Assembly: GCA_015295905.1 (NCBI GenBank)
Contig: DVEB01000158.1
Span: 1 to 32,227, forward strand
DNA: 32,227 nt
Direction: 5' to 3'
Origin: Synechococcales cyanobacterium M55_K2018_004
GTDB lineage: Bacteria > Cyanobacteriota > Cyanobacteriia > Elainellales > Elainellaceae
The notes under the pieces were generated by a model. That model did no database searches. It was given only the letters and a program-made list of their open reading frames with translations, and had not been told where the DNA came from. A program made the position numbers and the translations under genes. Position 1 is the stretch's first letter; every line of letters begins with the position of its first letter. Of this stretch, positions 1,387 to 19,379 are shown piece by piece.

Positions 1387-1536
1387 AAGCAATCGCGTTC
1401 CTGAAATCTTCGCTATCTCAGTGTGAATATATCTCAGTGTGAAGGGGGTGATGGGCGATCGCGCACCACCATCTATCCTCACCCTAACAAAACTGAGGCT
1501 GTTCTTCCGAGTCTTGAGTCATAAATGTCTTGAGTC

Positions 1537-1765
1537 GTATGGCACCATACGCATAGGCTAGGACAAAGCGTTTGGTGGAAAACCCTGCTGCACGAGCGTT
1601 CCCACCAAACGCTTTTAACGTGAATTCGGGATAAGCTGAAACCCTTGCTGTTTCGTGCGCGTCGCGCACGAAACAGCAAGGGTTTTGGGGCACCGCGCCC
1701 GGCGCGGTGCCCCACCCTCTTAACCCGAACTGACGTTTTTTACATCATGAGTGCGTAGCGTCATA
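1537..1765 (-). repeat. Family-2 palindromic element, interrupted by a family-1 element
   Basis: Read on the minus strand, the outer pieces are those of family 2. One end at 1738-1765 reads CTACGCACTCATGATGTAAA, the other at 1537-1565 contains CCTATGCGTATGG, and the hairpin is at 1566-1614 with arms based on AAGCGTTTGGTGG and CCACCAAACGCTT. Between the first end and the hairpin lies a complete family-1 element (1617-1737). Uninterrupted family-2 copies are at 7987-8092 and 11986-12090. Confidence 0.7.
1617..1737 (+). mobile_element. Family-1 palindromic element, copy 1 (MITE-like)
   Basis: A 121-bp unit with ends AACGTGAATTCGGG (1617) and, inverted, AACCCGAACTGACGTT (to 1737). Hairpin A has arms of about 20 bp around CGTGCGCG/CGCGCACG. 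Hairpin B is built on GGGGCACCGCGC/GCGCGGTGCCCC. No protein is encoded. This copy lies inside a family-2 element. Confidence 0.8.
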
Positions 1766-1829
1766 AACAACGCTTATCGCTAGTAATTCATGGCCTGGCA
1801 GTGCGGTTGTGGAGAGCATGTCGTCTTCG

Positions 1830-1925
1830 CAAGCCCTCATGCCCCAGCCCCTGTTCCCAACCCAGGAGCAGGAGAGCCGAGCATCTTAAAGTCTTGCTCT
1901 CCCACGTTGGCAGGGGGATTAAAGT
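1830..1925 (-). repeat. Dispersed repeat, CTCTCCC/GGGAGAG family, inverted copy
   Basis: The reverse complement aligns with 19275-19379. Shared parts include GCCCTCAT with CCCCAGCCC, a GAGCAGGAGAGCC core and GCATCTTAAAGTCTTGCTC. It is about full length but more diverged than the copy at 19275. Confidence 0.6.
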
Positions 1926-1989
1926 GCCATGCACCCGATCGCTCCTGCCTTGTAGCCTGAATCCAAAGTCAGTCTTGAAATTCCATGGC

Positions 1990-2115
1990 ATGCTGCGATT
2001 CGGACGTATGATTCGGTTGAGAGACGCCTATAAACTTTTGTTTTTAAGCGCGGCTTTTGGCGTTTCAAGTGTCATTATTTACTACGGTTATTTCGGCTTG
2101 AAGACGTTCAGGTAG
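1990..2115 (+). CDS. Possible small membrane peptide upstream of the stress protein gene
   Basis: A frame of 41 codons from ATG 1990, or 35 from ATG 2008, ends at TAG 2113-2115, eight bases before the universal stress protein start. The product has a basic N-terminus (MIRLRDAYK) followed by one hydrophobic segment (LLFLSAAFGVSSVIIYYGYF) and a short basic tail, the layout of a single-pass small protein with a positive-inside start. There is no strong ribosome-binding site and I recognise no family. The tight spacing to the next gene suggests translational coupling if it is real. It could also be leader sequence that is open by chance. Confidence 0.4.
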   Translation: MLRFGRMIRLRDAYKLLFLSAAFGVSSVIIYYGYFGLKTFR

Positions 2116-2123
2116 AGGCAACT

Positions 2124-2980: not shown

Positions 2981-3029
2981 AGCATGATGTAAAAAGCGTT
3001 GTTCTAACCTATGCGTGTAGCGCTATAGT
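2981..3029 (+). repeat. Family-2 element lacking its hairpin
   Basis: The left inner part GCATGATGTAAAA and the right end CTAACCTATGCGTGTAGCGC match the intact copies at 7987-8092 and 11986-12090. The long hairpin that separates them there is missing, leaving GCGTTGTT between. It lies just after the stress protein stop codon. Confidence 0.65.
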
Positions 3030-7986: not shown

Positions 7987-8092
7987 GTTACGGCGCTATG
8001 CGCTCATGATGTAAACAGTTTTTTGTAGGAAACCCCGCTGCGCGGGGTTTCCTACAAAAAACTGTGTCTTAACCTATGCGTGTAGCGCTATA
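7987..8092 (+). repeat. Family-2 palindromic element, intact
   Basis: The left end TTACGGCGCTATGCGCTCAT is followed by GATGTAA. A perfect hairpin has arms of about 24 bp (about 8015-8038 and 8041-8064; core GTAGGAAACCCCGC/GCGGGGTTTCCTAC). The right end is TCTTAACCTATGCGTGTAGC to about 8092. The outer ends are imperfect inverted repeats (GCGCTAYGCG versus the complement of CGTGTAGCGC). It lies in the nrdR-rpsA spacer. Confidence 0.8.
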
Positions 8093-9513: not shown

Positions 9514-9598
9514 TATAGCTGCTTGCAGGGGTGTGGTCTGTGGCCACTCCACTCAACCCCTTAACCACCGAGATCTTGTGCCATGTGACTGTCTCTCA
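9514..9598 (+). repeat. Family-3 repeat, left member of an inverted pair
   Basis: From TATAGCTGCTTGCAG to GTGACTGTCTCTCA, this 85-bp unit is the reverse complement of 12193-12278 with about ten differences. It contains the small palindrome GTGGTCTGTGGCCAC. A fragment resembling a family-2 end (GGCGCTACGCGCTATATA, about 9499-9516) abuts it on the left, and family-1 copy 3 lies 19 bases to the right. Confidence 0.8.
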
Positions 9599-9617
9599 TC
9601 AATATGAAAATCGCTAT

Positions 9618-11985: not shown

Positions 11986-12090
11986 AACGTGGCGCTACGT
12001 GCTCATGCTGTAAAACGCTTTTAGTGGGGAACCCTGCTCAGCAGGGTTCCCCACTAAACGTGTTGTCTTAACCTATGCGTGTAACGCAAT
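11986..12090 (+). repeat. Family-2 palindromic element, intact
   Basis: The left end is GTGGCGCTACGTGCTCATGC. The hairpin is TTAGTGGGGAACCCTGCT/AGCAGGGTTCCCCACTAA (about 12021-12057). The right end TCTTAACCTATGCGTGTAAC is at about 12066-12085. Compared with the copy at 7987, several stem pairs are changed on both sides. It is joined directly to family-1 copy 4. Confidence 0.8.
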
Positions 12091-12209
12091 AACGTGAATT
12101 CGGAATACACTGAAGCCCCTACTTTTTCGGGCGCGTCGCGCCCGAAAAAGTAGGGGCTTCAGGTTATCGCGTAGTGCTCCAAAACCCTCTTGCTGAGAGA
12201 CAGTCACGT
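12091..12209 (+). mobile_element. Family-1 palindromic element, copy 4
   Basis: It starts AACGTGAATTCGG directly after the family-2 element. Hairpin A is the longest seen: GAAGCCCCTACTTTTTCGGG and its perfect complement around CGCGTCGCG. The hairpin-B part is decayed (TTATCGCGTAGTGCTCC, CAAAACCCTC). The right end overlaps the family-3 repeat, so its boundary is uncertain. Confidence 0.75.
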
Positions 12210-12278
12210 AGCACAGGATCCCGCTGGTTAAGGGGTTGAGTGGTGTGGTCACAGACCACACTACTGCAAGCAGCTATA
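12193..12278 (-). repeat. Family-3 repeat, right member of an inverted pair
   Basis: The reverse complement of 9514-9598. Shared blocks include GCTGCTTGCAG, GTGTGGTCTGTG, ACTCAACCCCTTAACCA and GTGACTGTCTCTCA. With its partner it brackets the HAD and metK genes. The internal palindrome is GTGGTCACAGACCAC. Confidence 0.8.
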
Positions 12279-12382: not shown

Positions 12383-15300
12383 TCAGGAGGTTACAAAGTA
12401 GTTACTGACTGTCAAAGCACCTGCATTAGCATCGTTGCCTCGGAAGGTAATGCCCGTGACATTGATGACCAAGTCATCCGAGGCATCGAATGCAGCAGTG
12501 TTGCCGTTGACTGACAGGTAAGTGCCACCTTGCCAGCGGAAAAATACCGCTTCATCAACCCGGAGCGCTTGTGCACCAGGATTCACCTGGTTTTTATCGG
12601 CATAGGCGGCGATCGCGGCCTCGGTCAATGTGTTGCCAACCACTAGACCAGCATTAAAGAGACCCCGAATCAAAACCGGAACATTCTGTATCCTCACATT
12701 AAAACGATCTCCCTGCTGAGCATTGAAGTCAGTCACCCGATCCGGAGCGTTGACAGAAGAACCACTCACGAGCGCTGTCCTGCTTGCACCAGTAAAGTCA
12801 AATCGGTCAGCACCCGCTCCACCGGTTAGTTCATCGCGACCCGCACCACCATTGAGGATGTCATCCCCAGTACCACCAAACAATCGGTCGTTGCCACTCC
12901 CACCGAAGAGGCGATCTGCATCTTCCAAGCCTTGAATGAGGTCGTCTCCAGCACCGCCTTGAATGACATCGTTGCCTCGTCCTCCACGAATGTCGTCATC
13001 CCCGTCATCCCCGAATATCTGGTCGTTGCCGATTCCGCCTCGCAAAACATCGTTGCCATCCCCACCGCGGAGCACGTCGTTGCTAGCTGCCCCGTCGAGT
13101 AGGTCATTACCCCCATTACCCTCTAAGGTATCGTTGCCATCTCCACCCAGAAGCGTATCATTGCCATCGCCACCGAAGAGGCTATCTGCATCTTCAAAGC
13201 CTTGAATGAGGTCGTTTCCGGCGCCGCCTTGAATGATATCGTCACCTTGTCCGCCGCGAATGTCGTCATCCCCGGCATCCCCAAATATCCGGTCGTTGCC
13301 GATTCCGCCTCGCAAGATATCGTTGCCATCGCCACCGCGGAGCACGTCGTTGCCAACTGACCCGTCGAGTAGGTCATTACCCGCGTTACCCTCTAAGGTA
13401 TCGTTGCCATCCCCGCCCAGGAGCGTATCATTGCCATCGCCACCGAAGAGGCGATCTGCATCTTCAAAGCCTTGAATGAGGTCGTTTCCGGTGCCGCCTT
13501 GAATGACGTCATCGCCTTGCCCGCCACGAATATTGTCATCCCCGGCATCCCCGAATATCTGGTCGTTACCGATTCCGCCTCGCAAAACATCGTTGCCATC
13601 GCCACCGCGGATCACATCGTTGCCGACTCCGCCAAAGATCCGATCTCGACCTCCCTCTCCGAAGAGGGTGTCGTTGCCGGCATCCCCAAGTATGAGATCC
13701 CCGCAGTTTCCACCCCGGATCGTGTCGTTTCCACCAAGGCCACGAATTGTATCAATATCGGGAGTCCCAACTAGGTTATCGGCATTCGGAGTTCCAATGA
13801 TGGTTCGTCCTGGCTTACAACCTGAGTCATCCGAACCTTCGGCTACAACGGTTACTGTCGCAGCGGCACTGAACGCTCCACGCCCATCTGTAGCCGTGTA
13901 GTTAAAGCTAGCGCCTGTAAACCCAGGTCTAGCCCTGAAGAAAAGCCGACTCAGTTCGGTAGGGGTCAAACGTTCGCCTTGAAGCACTAGGCGGGTGATT
14001 CCGGCTTCCTCAATCAGCAACACGCCCTGATTGGGGTTGGGCAAACTGACGATCGTAAAAAAGGCGATCGCATCTCCAACGTCCGGATCGGTGGCAGCAA
14101 TTCCGGTCACCTGAACGGTCTGCCGCTCTTGGGCTTGGATGGTGCTGGGCTGAGCAACTGGGGGATTGTTGTTTGGTAAAACAAACGCCACAATGCCGTT
14201 GGTTGGATCAGTCGCGCCCTCTTCATCGGTTGCGGTGTACTCAAAACGTGCGCCCGTAAATCCAGAATTGGGGGGTTGGTAGAAGAGTTGGGCGGCCAGT
14301 GCTGGGGTCAACACACGCCCACCAGGGGGCAAGGACGTGATTGGAGATCCCCCAGCACTGGGGTCTCCTAGGAAGAGTTGCCCCTGACTAGGGAGTGTTT
14401 TAATAATGAAGTTAACGATGGGTTCGCCATCTGGGTCAATGGCGCTGAGGGCGTTGTTTCCAGTTAGGGCGATCGCCGTAGTAGCAGAAACCGTCACTGC
14501 TACATCCTGTGCAATAGGAGGCCGCGCTGCCTGGCGAATCTCCAGCGTATTAATTTCATGGATGTTGGTGAAGCTTCCTGTGGCACCAGCAAAACCAAAC
14601 TTAAACGTAGTTGGGATGCTTTGCCCCAAACGCTCGGCAATGTTGGGGATGTTGATGACCTCAAACTCTTGTCCAGGATTCTCCCGACCGTTAAAGTCGA
14701 TCGTAACAGTGAGCCGACCATTAGGCAGGAGTCGGATGCGGGCTGTGCGGAGGGCTGCATCGCGAGTCTGAGCTGAAGCATTGTCGATGGATAGGTCGGG
14801 GCCGAGCTGGCTCAAGGAGGTGTGAGTAATATATTCATACCCGTCACGTTGAGAACCAGGTCCCCTCAGGGTCACTGAATCTGGGCGACGACCTGGCCCC
14901 CCGTTGCGTACAGTCTCTTGCCCTGCAAAATCATTCGGCGATGCAAAATTACCAAAAGCATCAAACCCAATGCCGAGGTAGCCCCCCACCAACCCATCAC
15001 CGGGGTCACTGGGATTACTCGGGTCATTGGGAAGATTCAACCGTGGTGCGTAGCCCAGTGACCCCCCAAAACTGCCGGAAGTGGTTGGACTCGCACTTCC
15101 GTCGATCAGGAAGAAGGAGATCCCATCTGCTCCCTGAAGCTGACTATTCTGGCTGGTATCACTGCCGTAGGCAAAAAAGTTGAAGGTAACATCCAAACCT
15201 GCATTTGCTGGCAGGGCAATGTTGTAGATCAGAAATGTAGACTGATTCTTATTGAGTGAAGACGTTTGATCTGCACCGCTCCGCCCCGTTAGCCGAAATG

Positions 15301-16018
15301 CACCCTCGCCGACACGGTCAATGGCACCACCAGGAGCACCTTTGACCGTATTGGGGATTGAACCGGGGGGAAAATCATTGCTGCCGTCGCGTGCGGTCAA
15401 GTAAGGATAGAGAAAAGGGTTGGTCTGATCGCCCTGGAGGGTTCCGGTGATCCAGGCCCCTTCGACGGTATCGTCTTTGAAGTCCTCCTCCAGGACGAGA
15501 TCCGCCAACACGAACGGGTAATCCTCTAGGGCAGCAGAATCAAAAATGGAAGTCGTCTCGATGGGGCCCGTACTGGCTTCGAGCACCCAATCTCCTCCTA
15601 ATGCAGCACACCCTGTCAGGTTGGTTGAGGCTGCAACATTTGCACCGGTTAGTTGGGCCAACTTTTGAATGAAGCCTGCCCCCTGCTCTCCAGCAGCCAC
15701 CTCGCAGCCATAGAGCAGAATGCTGGCGGTTTCAGTGAGGGCGTTTGACCAGCTTGCAAGTTGGTCTTGGTTCCTCTCCAGAACCTCACTAGTAACTGGA
15801 GCGTTACCCAGATGAACTGCTCCAGCAGCGCCATGGGAGAGAACGTGTAGGCTGGTGAGCGCCGTATAGTGCTGTAGGGTTTGGGTAATTTGATTGATGC
15901 CATCCTGAGCAGAGTCCAGCACAACGACGTCTGTACCTGGACGAAGATTGCGGATTAGACTCTCGTAGTGATGAACTTTTGAGTCAATAAGCAGAAGGGT
16001 AGATGGTAATGAAGTCAC
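12383..16018 (-). CDS. Large DUF4347 / lectin-like / cadherin-like / RTX calcium-binding protein
   Basis: A 1211-residue secreted-type protein. The GTG start at 16018 follows GAGGA six bases away. Residues 1-170 form a DUF4347 domain with SHG (His62) and LYGC (Cys105), spacing like the His-Cys dyads of caspase-clan (CHAT-like) peptidases. Residues about 171-505 resemble an L-type lectin or similar beta-sandwich (FLIYNIALPANAG, GISFFLIDG, YLGIGFDAFG). Two cadherin-like repeats follow (about 510-610 and 615-725). RTX nonapeptides (GGDGNDTL, GNDVIRGG) cover about 735-1070 and should form calcium-filled beta-rolls. The C-terminus (about 1075-1211) resembles the serralysin/RTX tail. No Sec signal peptide is seen, consistent with C-terminal-signal type I export. 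It stands alone, convergent with metK. A surface adhesin or a peptidase-like effector are both possible. Confidence 0.85.
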   Translation of the reverse strand: MTSLPSTLLLIDSKVHHYESLIRNLRPGTDVVVLDSAQDGINQITQTLQHYTALTSLHVLSHGAAGAVHLGNAPVTSEVLERNQDQLASWSNALTETASILLYGCEVAAGEQGAGFIQKLAQLTGANVAASTNLTGCAALGGDWVLEASTGPIETTSIFDSAALEDYPFVLADLVLEEDFKDDTVEGAWITGTLQGDQTNPFLYPYLTARDGSNDFPPGSIPNTVKGAPGGAIDRVGEGAFRLTGRSGADQTSSLNKNQSTFLIYNIALPANAGLDVTFNFFAYGSDTSQNSQLQGADGISFFLIDGSASPTTSGSFGGSLGYAPRLNLPNDPSNPSDPGDGLVGGYLGIGFDAFGNFASPNDFAGQETVRNGGPGRRPDSVTLRGPGSQRDGYEYITHTSLSQLGPDLSIDNASAQTRDAALRTARIRLLPNGRLTVTIDFNGRENPGQEFEVINIPNIAERLGQSIPTTFKFGFAGATGSFTNIHEINTLEIRQAARPPIAQDVAVTVSATTAIALTGNNALSAIDPDGEPIVNFIIKTLPSQGQLFLGDPSAGGSPITSLPPGGRVLTPALAAQLFYQPPNSGFTGARFEYTATDEEGATDPTNGIVAFVLPNNNPPVAQPSTIQAQERQTVQVTGIAATDPDVGDAIAFFTIVSLPNPNQGVLLIEEAGITRLVLQGERLTPTELSRLFFRARPGFTGASFNYTATDGRGAFSAAATVTVVAEGSDDSGCKPGRTIIGTPNADNLVGTPDIDTIRGLGGNDTIRGGNCGDLILGDAGNDTLFGEGGRDRIFGGVGNDVIRGGDGNDVLRGGIGNDQIFGDAGDDNIRGGQGDDVIQGGTGNDLIQGFEDADRLFGGDGNDTLLGGDGNDTLEGNAGNDLLDGSVGNDVLRGGDGNDILRGGIGNDRIFGDAGDDDIRGGQGDDIIQGGAGNDLIQGFEDADSLFGGDGNDTLLGGDGNDTLEGNGGNDLLDGAASNDVLRGGDGNDVLRGGIGNDQIFGDDGDDDIRGGRGNDVIQGGAGDDLIQGLEDADRLFGGSGNDRLFGGTGDDILNGGAGRDELTGGAGADRFDFTGASRTALVSGSSVNAPDRVTDFNAQQGDRFNVRIQNVPVLIRGLFNAGLVVGNTLTEAAIAAYADKNQVNPGAQALRVDEAVFFRWQGGTYLSVNGNTAAFDASDDLVINVTGITFRGNDANAGALTVSNYFVTS
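12908..13630 (-). repeat. 270-bp tandem repeat inside the RTX region
   Basis: The block beginning GAGGCGATCTGCATCTTC occurs at 12908, 13178 and 13448, exactly 270 bases apart. The unit is 90 codons, i.e. ten RTX nonapeptides. The third unit diverges after about 13625, so there are about 2.7 copies. High nucleotide identity, including silent sites, suggests recent duplication or gene conversion. Confidence 0.85.
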
Positions 16019-19047: not shown

Positions 19048-19133
19048 ATCGTTGTTCGATCAGGTCTGGACTTTGGGGCTGACGAGGTGCCTGTCACGTT
19101 TGCCCTCACTCAAAGGCTCAGGGGGAGATTGTC

Positions 19134-19237: not shown

Positions 19238-19274
19238 CACTAGGGATCGGAGGTGCGACTGACGGGGTACTTTT

Positions 19275-19379
19275 CACGTTTGCCCTCACTCAAAGTCTCT
19301 CTTCCAGCTTGGGAGAGAGACTTTGAGATGCTTGGCTCCCCTGCTCCCAACTAGGGAGCAAGGGCTGGGGGATGAGGGC
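19275..19379 (+). repeat. Dispersed repeat, CTCTCCC/GGGAGAG family, most complete copy
   Basis: From CACGTTTGCCCTCACTCAAA through GGGAGAGAGACTTTGAGATG and GCTCCC...GGGAGC to GATGAGGGC. The outer ends (GCCCTCA and TGAGGGC) are inverted, with two inner palindromes (CTCTCTTCC/GGGAGAGAG, GCTCCCAAC/GGGAGC). Other copies are at 301 and 1830. Similar units are known to me as common spacer sequence in cyanobacteria. Confidence 0.75.

Follow-up and report, generated by a model that had tools for sequence, protein, structure and literature searches.

MITEs derived from IS982 insertion sequences have been described in Cardinium, where they are mostly intergenic or disrupt other mobile elements; one of them, MITECca01 of Cardinium cOegib, is about 240 bp long and occurs in 169 copies, with its intact parent, ISCca4, in the same genome (PMC9769881). 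Members of the IS982 family have 5′-AC ends and variable direct repeats (PMC7335449), and IS630-type elements insert at TA dinucleotides, which they duplicate (PMC2170065). Among cyanobacteria, 147 MITE copies, of types without a matching insertion sequence, are on record for Anabaena sp. 90 (PMC3542288).

The genome considered here is that of a filamentous cyanobacterium. Two kinds of short mobile DNA without genes, called family 1 and family 2 below, crowd the gaps between its genes. The genome is a draft assembly of 5.01 Mb in 362 contigs, with photosystem II and cytochrome f proteins among its genes, and one flanking gene places it closest, among named relatives, to Leptolyngbyaceae-type and Elainella-type cyanobacteria. 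The stretch analysed, hereafter the window, is one whole contig of 32 kb (C241). Family 1 resembles MITECca01 in being short, gene-less, mostly intergenic, often located in other mobile elements, bounded by IS982-family ends and the top element by abundance, but it differs in its length (about 122 bp), its two long hairpins, its roughly 1,100 copies and a parent that was not found in the genome. With IS982 insertion sequences it shares AC ends, short variable direct repeats and a parent of about 1 kb in a relative (G035), but not the transposase gene. Family 2 resembles the IS630/Tc1-mariner family, for instance ISY100 of Synechocystis, in its TA...TA ends and TA target (PMC2170065), but it is a gene-less element of 104 bp, and the IS630 members whose ends it was seen to match are other ones, in relatives. 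By description, both families recall the MITEs of Anabaena sp. 90 (short, hairpin-forming, mostly intergenic and cyanobacterial), from which they differ by exceeding 1,000 copies and by having identifiable insertion sequence ends.

Two abundant families of MITEs

Family 1 codes for no protein and, going by its ends and direct repeats, appears to be an IS982-type MITE. Its ends (AACGTGAATTCGGGATAAG / AACGTCAGTTCTGGTTAAG) take the form AC...GT in 74 of 85 full copies, and exact duplications of 6, 7 and 8 bp flank 7, 6 and 4 of these 85 copies, where mispaired flanks lead one to expect 0.14, 0.06 and 0.01. Taken over 6-9 bp, exact duplications are present in 19 of the 85, against a null near 0.2, and the duplicated targets follow a T...A rule, mostly with TA at the start and TA at the end. 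On these counts, the borders initially drawn (AACG...CGTT with repeats of 4-7 bp) were dropped for AC...GT with repeats of 6-9 bp. Copies in the window start at 1618, 4107, 9618, 12091, 16743, 21945, 28687 and 32158.

Ends of the same ACGTGAATTC type bound an insertion sequence in the relative G035 (L091, 84-1051), where AACGTGAGTTCGGGATAAG and AACGTGAGTTCGGGTTAAG frame an IS982 transposase; the element is intact, about 0.97 kb long, and its 292-aa product belongs to the IS982 family (NF033520, E 1.4e-73, cut-off passed; also PF13612). The two family-1 hairpins have no evident link to this element, the sequences being compared unaligned. A search with the G035 transposase gave no match in the draft assembly, and the IS982 profile search of the genome returned one sub-cut-off NF033520 match only (E 8.7e-6), which is not accompanied by family-1 ends; since the assembly is a draft in 362 contigs, this absence is not final. 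Family 1 is therefore best described as an orphan member of the IS982-derived MITEs, one whose partner transposase was not found in the genome, and not as a non-member. The end pattern is abundant in relatives as well (413 sites in G003, 284 in G009 and 313 in G015), and this kind of element is therefore widespread in the group.

Family 2 is about 104 bp long, with one hairpin and no coded protein, lies between TA dinucleotides, and by sequence can be assigned to the IS630-type MITEs. All 38 full copies tested have TA...TA ends, and one copy (in L155) lies within an IS630-like remnant, which it splits, and is flanked there by TA on either side. In the relative G025 (L092), TATAGCGCTACGC... ends adjoin an IS630 C-terminus (PF13358, E 1.6e-10; NF033545, E 8.8e-12), and in G019 the same type of end adjoins a shorter IS630-like C-terminal piece, for which a profile search gave no match. 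The IS630 copies with family-2 ends that were read in relatives are partial ones, at contig ends. In the genome itself, the IS630 search yielded only sub-cut-off or frameshifted fragments, none framed by family-2 ends, and its assembly provided no partner transposase for family 2 as an IS630-derived MITE.

The genome contains the family-1 end pattern at 1,235 sites against 3 control matches and the family-2 end pattern at 197 against 0, so that the family-1 and family-2 likeness is not due to chance. A systematic sample (40 contigs plus the window, 444 kb) contained 98 family-1 and 33 family-2 matches, equivalent to about 1,100 and 370 per genome. Enlarging the sample to 1.154 Mb gave 252 and 116 matches, 65 of the latter being full length and without an insert; the family-2 figure of 504 that follows is biased upward because the added stretches are on contigs already known as carriers. 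Our estimate is about 1,100 family-1 and 370-500 family-2 copies, and by sample the two families together (about 1,500 copies) account for about 3% of total and 13-14% of intergenic DNA, the latter being itself about 21% of the sample.

A family-1 element inside a family-2 copy

The nested site occupies a spacer between a thioesterase gene and a universal stress protein gene (Table 1). Read on the minus strand, the order is family-2 left end (1766-1737), family-1 element (1736-1618), family-2 hairpin and family-2 right end (to 1538), so that a family-1 element of ~119 bp is located between the left end and the hairpin of a minus-strand family-2 element. The first-pass annotation, made from the letters of the window, had described this layout, and profiles built from copies across the genome bear it out within 1-2 bases; the span of 1617-1737 given there for family 1 includes one flanking base too many per side of an element that is otherwise as described.

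Table 1. Features of the window at and around the nested site, with the reference copies of family 2
Feature	Position	Strand	Evidence or remark
Thioesterase gene	913-1482	minus	Left neighbour of spacer
Spacer holding the nested site	1483-2123		Between thioesterase and universal stress protein genes
Family-2 right end and hairpin (hairpin 1565-1615)	1538-1617	minus	nhmmer match to family-2 model 22-104
Left copy of target duplication, CTTTTA	1612-1617		Within family-2 right-end part
Complete family-1 element, AC...GT ends	1618-1736	plus	nhmmer model 1-124, E 4e-37; no ORF of note
Two internal hairpins of the family-1 element	1639-1685 and about 1686-1714		First has perfect 23-bp arms
Family-2 left end, plus-strand reading TTTTTACATCATGAGTGCGTAGCGTCATAA	1737-1765/1766	minus	Junction-spanning match after flank joining
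Right copy of target duplication, TTTTTA	1737-1742		Start of family-2 left-end part
Universal stress protein gene	2124-2975	plus	Right neighbour of spacer
Uninterrupted family-2 copy	7989-8092	plus	nhmmer model 1-104, E 8e-32; reference for empty arrangement
Uninterrupted family-2 copy	11988-12091	plus	nhmmer model 3-103, E 3e-24; terminal TA shares A with next element
Family-1 element abutting family-2 end	12091-12192	plus	nhmmer E 2e-18; far end truncated (model 1-109)

When the family-1 element is removed and the flanks are joined, a single family-2 profile match (model 1-103, E 2e-23) bridges the two halves, and the left end alone is an inverted match (86%) to 7988-8015. Intact family-2 copies had been placed near 7987 and 11986, and both were found there as contiguous elements. 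The target duplication at the insert is 6 bp long with one mismatch (CTTTTA on the left, TTTTTA on the right); it is weak evidence alone, being T-rich and imperfect, and it conforms, one mismatch aside, to the duplication rule of family 1. Since both halves of the family-2 element are present in order and orientation, since uninterrupted copies exist and since the insert is flanked by this duplication, the nesting of family 1 within a pre-existing family-2 copy at 1538-1766 is supported as a real insertion.

A 230-bp structure of this kind might also be a composite mobile unit, with family-2 ends and a family-1 core moving as one, which the first-pass annotation had set against nesting. Some loci resemble what such a unit would leave: at L185 a family-1 piece lies, as in the window, at about position 28 of family 2 and in an unchanged relative orientation, and at L162 and L177 a family-1 copy lies on that side of the hairpin, where the left end has been lost. 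A composite transposon would require several copies of the whole unit, however, and the genome holds a single full match, no other spanning both family-2 halves and the inner element. Furthermore, L185 differs from the window in its duplication and hairpin, its family-1 copy carries an internal deletion, and most sampled family-2 copies (the 65 of 116 above) are full length and uninterrupted, so that we consider the composite very improbable. That recombination or misassembly put family 2 together around family 1 is brought to mind by the draft state of the assembly, many of whose 362 contigs end within these repeats; but the site lies in the interior of a 32-kb contig and carries a duplication, and the same arrangement arises independently elsewhere, which makes such an origin extremely improbable.

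We are thus highly confident in the insertion of an IS982-type MITE into a resident IS630-type MITE at 1538-1766 with a 6-bp target duplication. Given the nesting, ends and duplication observed here and the transposases observed in relatives, an IS982-type transposase, provided in trans at some past time, would have inserted the family-1 copy where the hairpin of the resident family-2 element has its T-rich base, and duplicated a 6-bp target there; family-2 copies would have been moved by an IS630-type transposase.

A search of relatives for an uninterrupted family-2 copy in this spacer gave none: in more than 30 of their loci with thioesterase and universal stress protein neighbours, neither element was found in between. 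A distant blastn search of the locus in plasmid records gave no match, and Rfam recognized no RNA family in the window. On the other side of the universal stress protein gene, before a DNA methylase gene, there is a solitary family-2 right end (2991-3027).

Order of events and frequency of contacts

Clear two-sided cases of family 1 in family 2 number three, namely the window, L175 (6568; duplication TCACCTA/TAACCTA) and L185 (4834; duplication TCAAAA), and in several more one family-2 end is missing. Joined-flank scoring had also proposed L167 and L162 as nested; on reading, these are adjacent or one-sided. The converse occurs at L179 (19040-19113), where a single family-1 element is split in two by a family-2 copy that lacks its right end; the two family-1 pieces, when joined, give a family-1 match (E 3e-18). 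Family 2 has therefore also entered family 1, and the active periods of the two families must have overlapped or alternated. The claim that family 2 was there first thus holds for the copy at 1538-1766, through its junction-spanning match and duplication, and not for the families as such. The nested copy gives the relative age of two insertions; together with L179, it indicates two MITE families that spread in overlapping periods.

Abutting pairs are a different matter. At L115, L176, L169 and window position 12090 the two elements have a TA in common at their border, which may reflect family 2 entering a TA made at a family-1 end, or chance through a common preference for TA, and such pairs cannot be ordered. 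The close association at 12090 was correctly noted in the first-pass annotation, as family 1 begins exactly at the family-2 end, with the A at 12091 common to both, but it shows no order, given that TA sites serve both families and that family 1 is truncated here. The second copy of an 89-nt inverted repeat (9514-9602 and 12190-12278, 89% alike) follows this truncated element and may have caused the truncation. At L194 (11247-11370), a family-1 copy next to a family-2 remnant has inverted rather than direct flanking repeats (tatctt...aagata).

The positions at which the families meet recur, at about 87 of the family-2 model (L175 twice, L193) and at about 26-28 (window, L185, L162), and target preference may be the reason, the numbers being small. 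Family 1 could accordingly be drawn to family 2, where its transposase would favour the TAACCTA stretch or the base of the hairpin, so that targeting and not chance brought the two together. Besides this reuse of positions, contacts within 25 bp, counted as nearest-neighbour gaps from family 1 to family 2, are in favour of such targeting, with 40 observed against 26.9 +/- 3.1 when family-1 copies are moved randomly within their own spacers, a null that is approximate because the underlying gene calls are simple ORFs. Within 5 bp, however, the same null gives 20.1 +/- 3.2 against 25 observed, an excess that is modest at best because some of the 25 are cross-matches between hairpins, and about 11 of 248 family-1 copies are expected inside family 2 by global chance if all family-2 copies are older. 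The hot positions agree with the T...A targets that family 1 prefers in general, the stretch at about 87 being TAACCTA, and some abutments agree with insertion of family 2 into a TA that borders a family-1 element. Targeting is therefore an unlikely explanation; random insertion into the same gene gaps would by itself bring the families into contact about as often as is observed, and the copy in the window is an ordinary case of MITE nesting, in a genome unusually rich in MITEs.

Paired changes in hairpin arms

More notable than the nesting itself are two other features of this genome, its extreme MITE load and the covariation of the hairpin arms. In both families, coordinated changes on the two arms are much more frequent in the inner hairpins (for example at 1639-1685 in the window) than in the terminal repeats. 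Across an alignment of 103 family-1 copies, the inner hairpins show 198 Watson-Crick changes paired between the arms, where shuffling leads one to expect 60, and the terminal repeats 13, where 8 are expected; in 65 family-2 copies the corresponding figures are 93 against 40 in the hairpin and 4 against 5 in the terminal repeats. Inherited subfamilies inflate these counts, and the contrast between hairpin and terminal repeat is still clear. Possible causes are correction templated by the hairpin and selection for structure. A broader reading, which we offer tentatively and think rather doubtful, is that the hairpins were kept palindromic while drifting, through hairpin-templated repair or selection for the fold, in a genome that amplified about 1,500 elements and then lost the transposases. 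No matching intact transposase was found, and the genome would be a useful case for studying how a MITE load builds up and outlives its movers.

Other repeats

A third palindromic repeat (cctgtaaagtagcagttggtt..gatgtaaaacg..cgttttacatcacaaccaac) lies beside MITEs at L003 (left of 1501) and L155 (about 1450-1520). A further intergenic repeat (CACGTTTGCCCTCACTCAAAG...GGGAGAGAGACTT) occurs in the window at 294-364, 19074-19119 and 19265-19335, its copies being 73-85% alike. Within a minus-strand ORF of 1211 aa (12383-16018), three tandem units of 270 bp, 76-84% alike, are located at 12839-13678.
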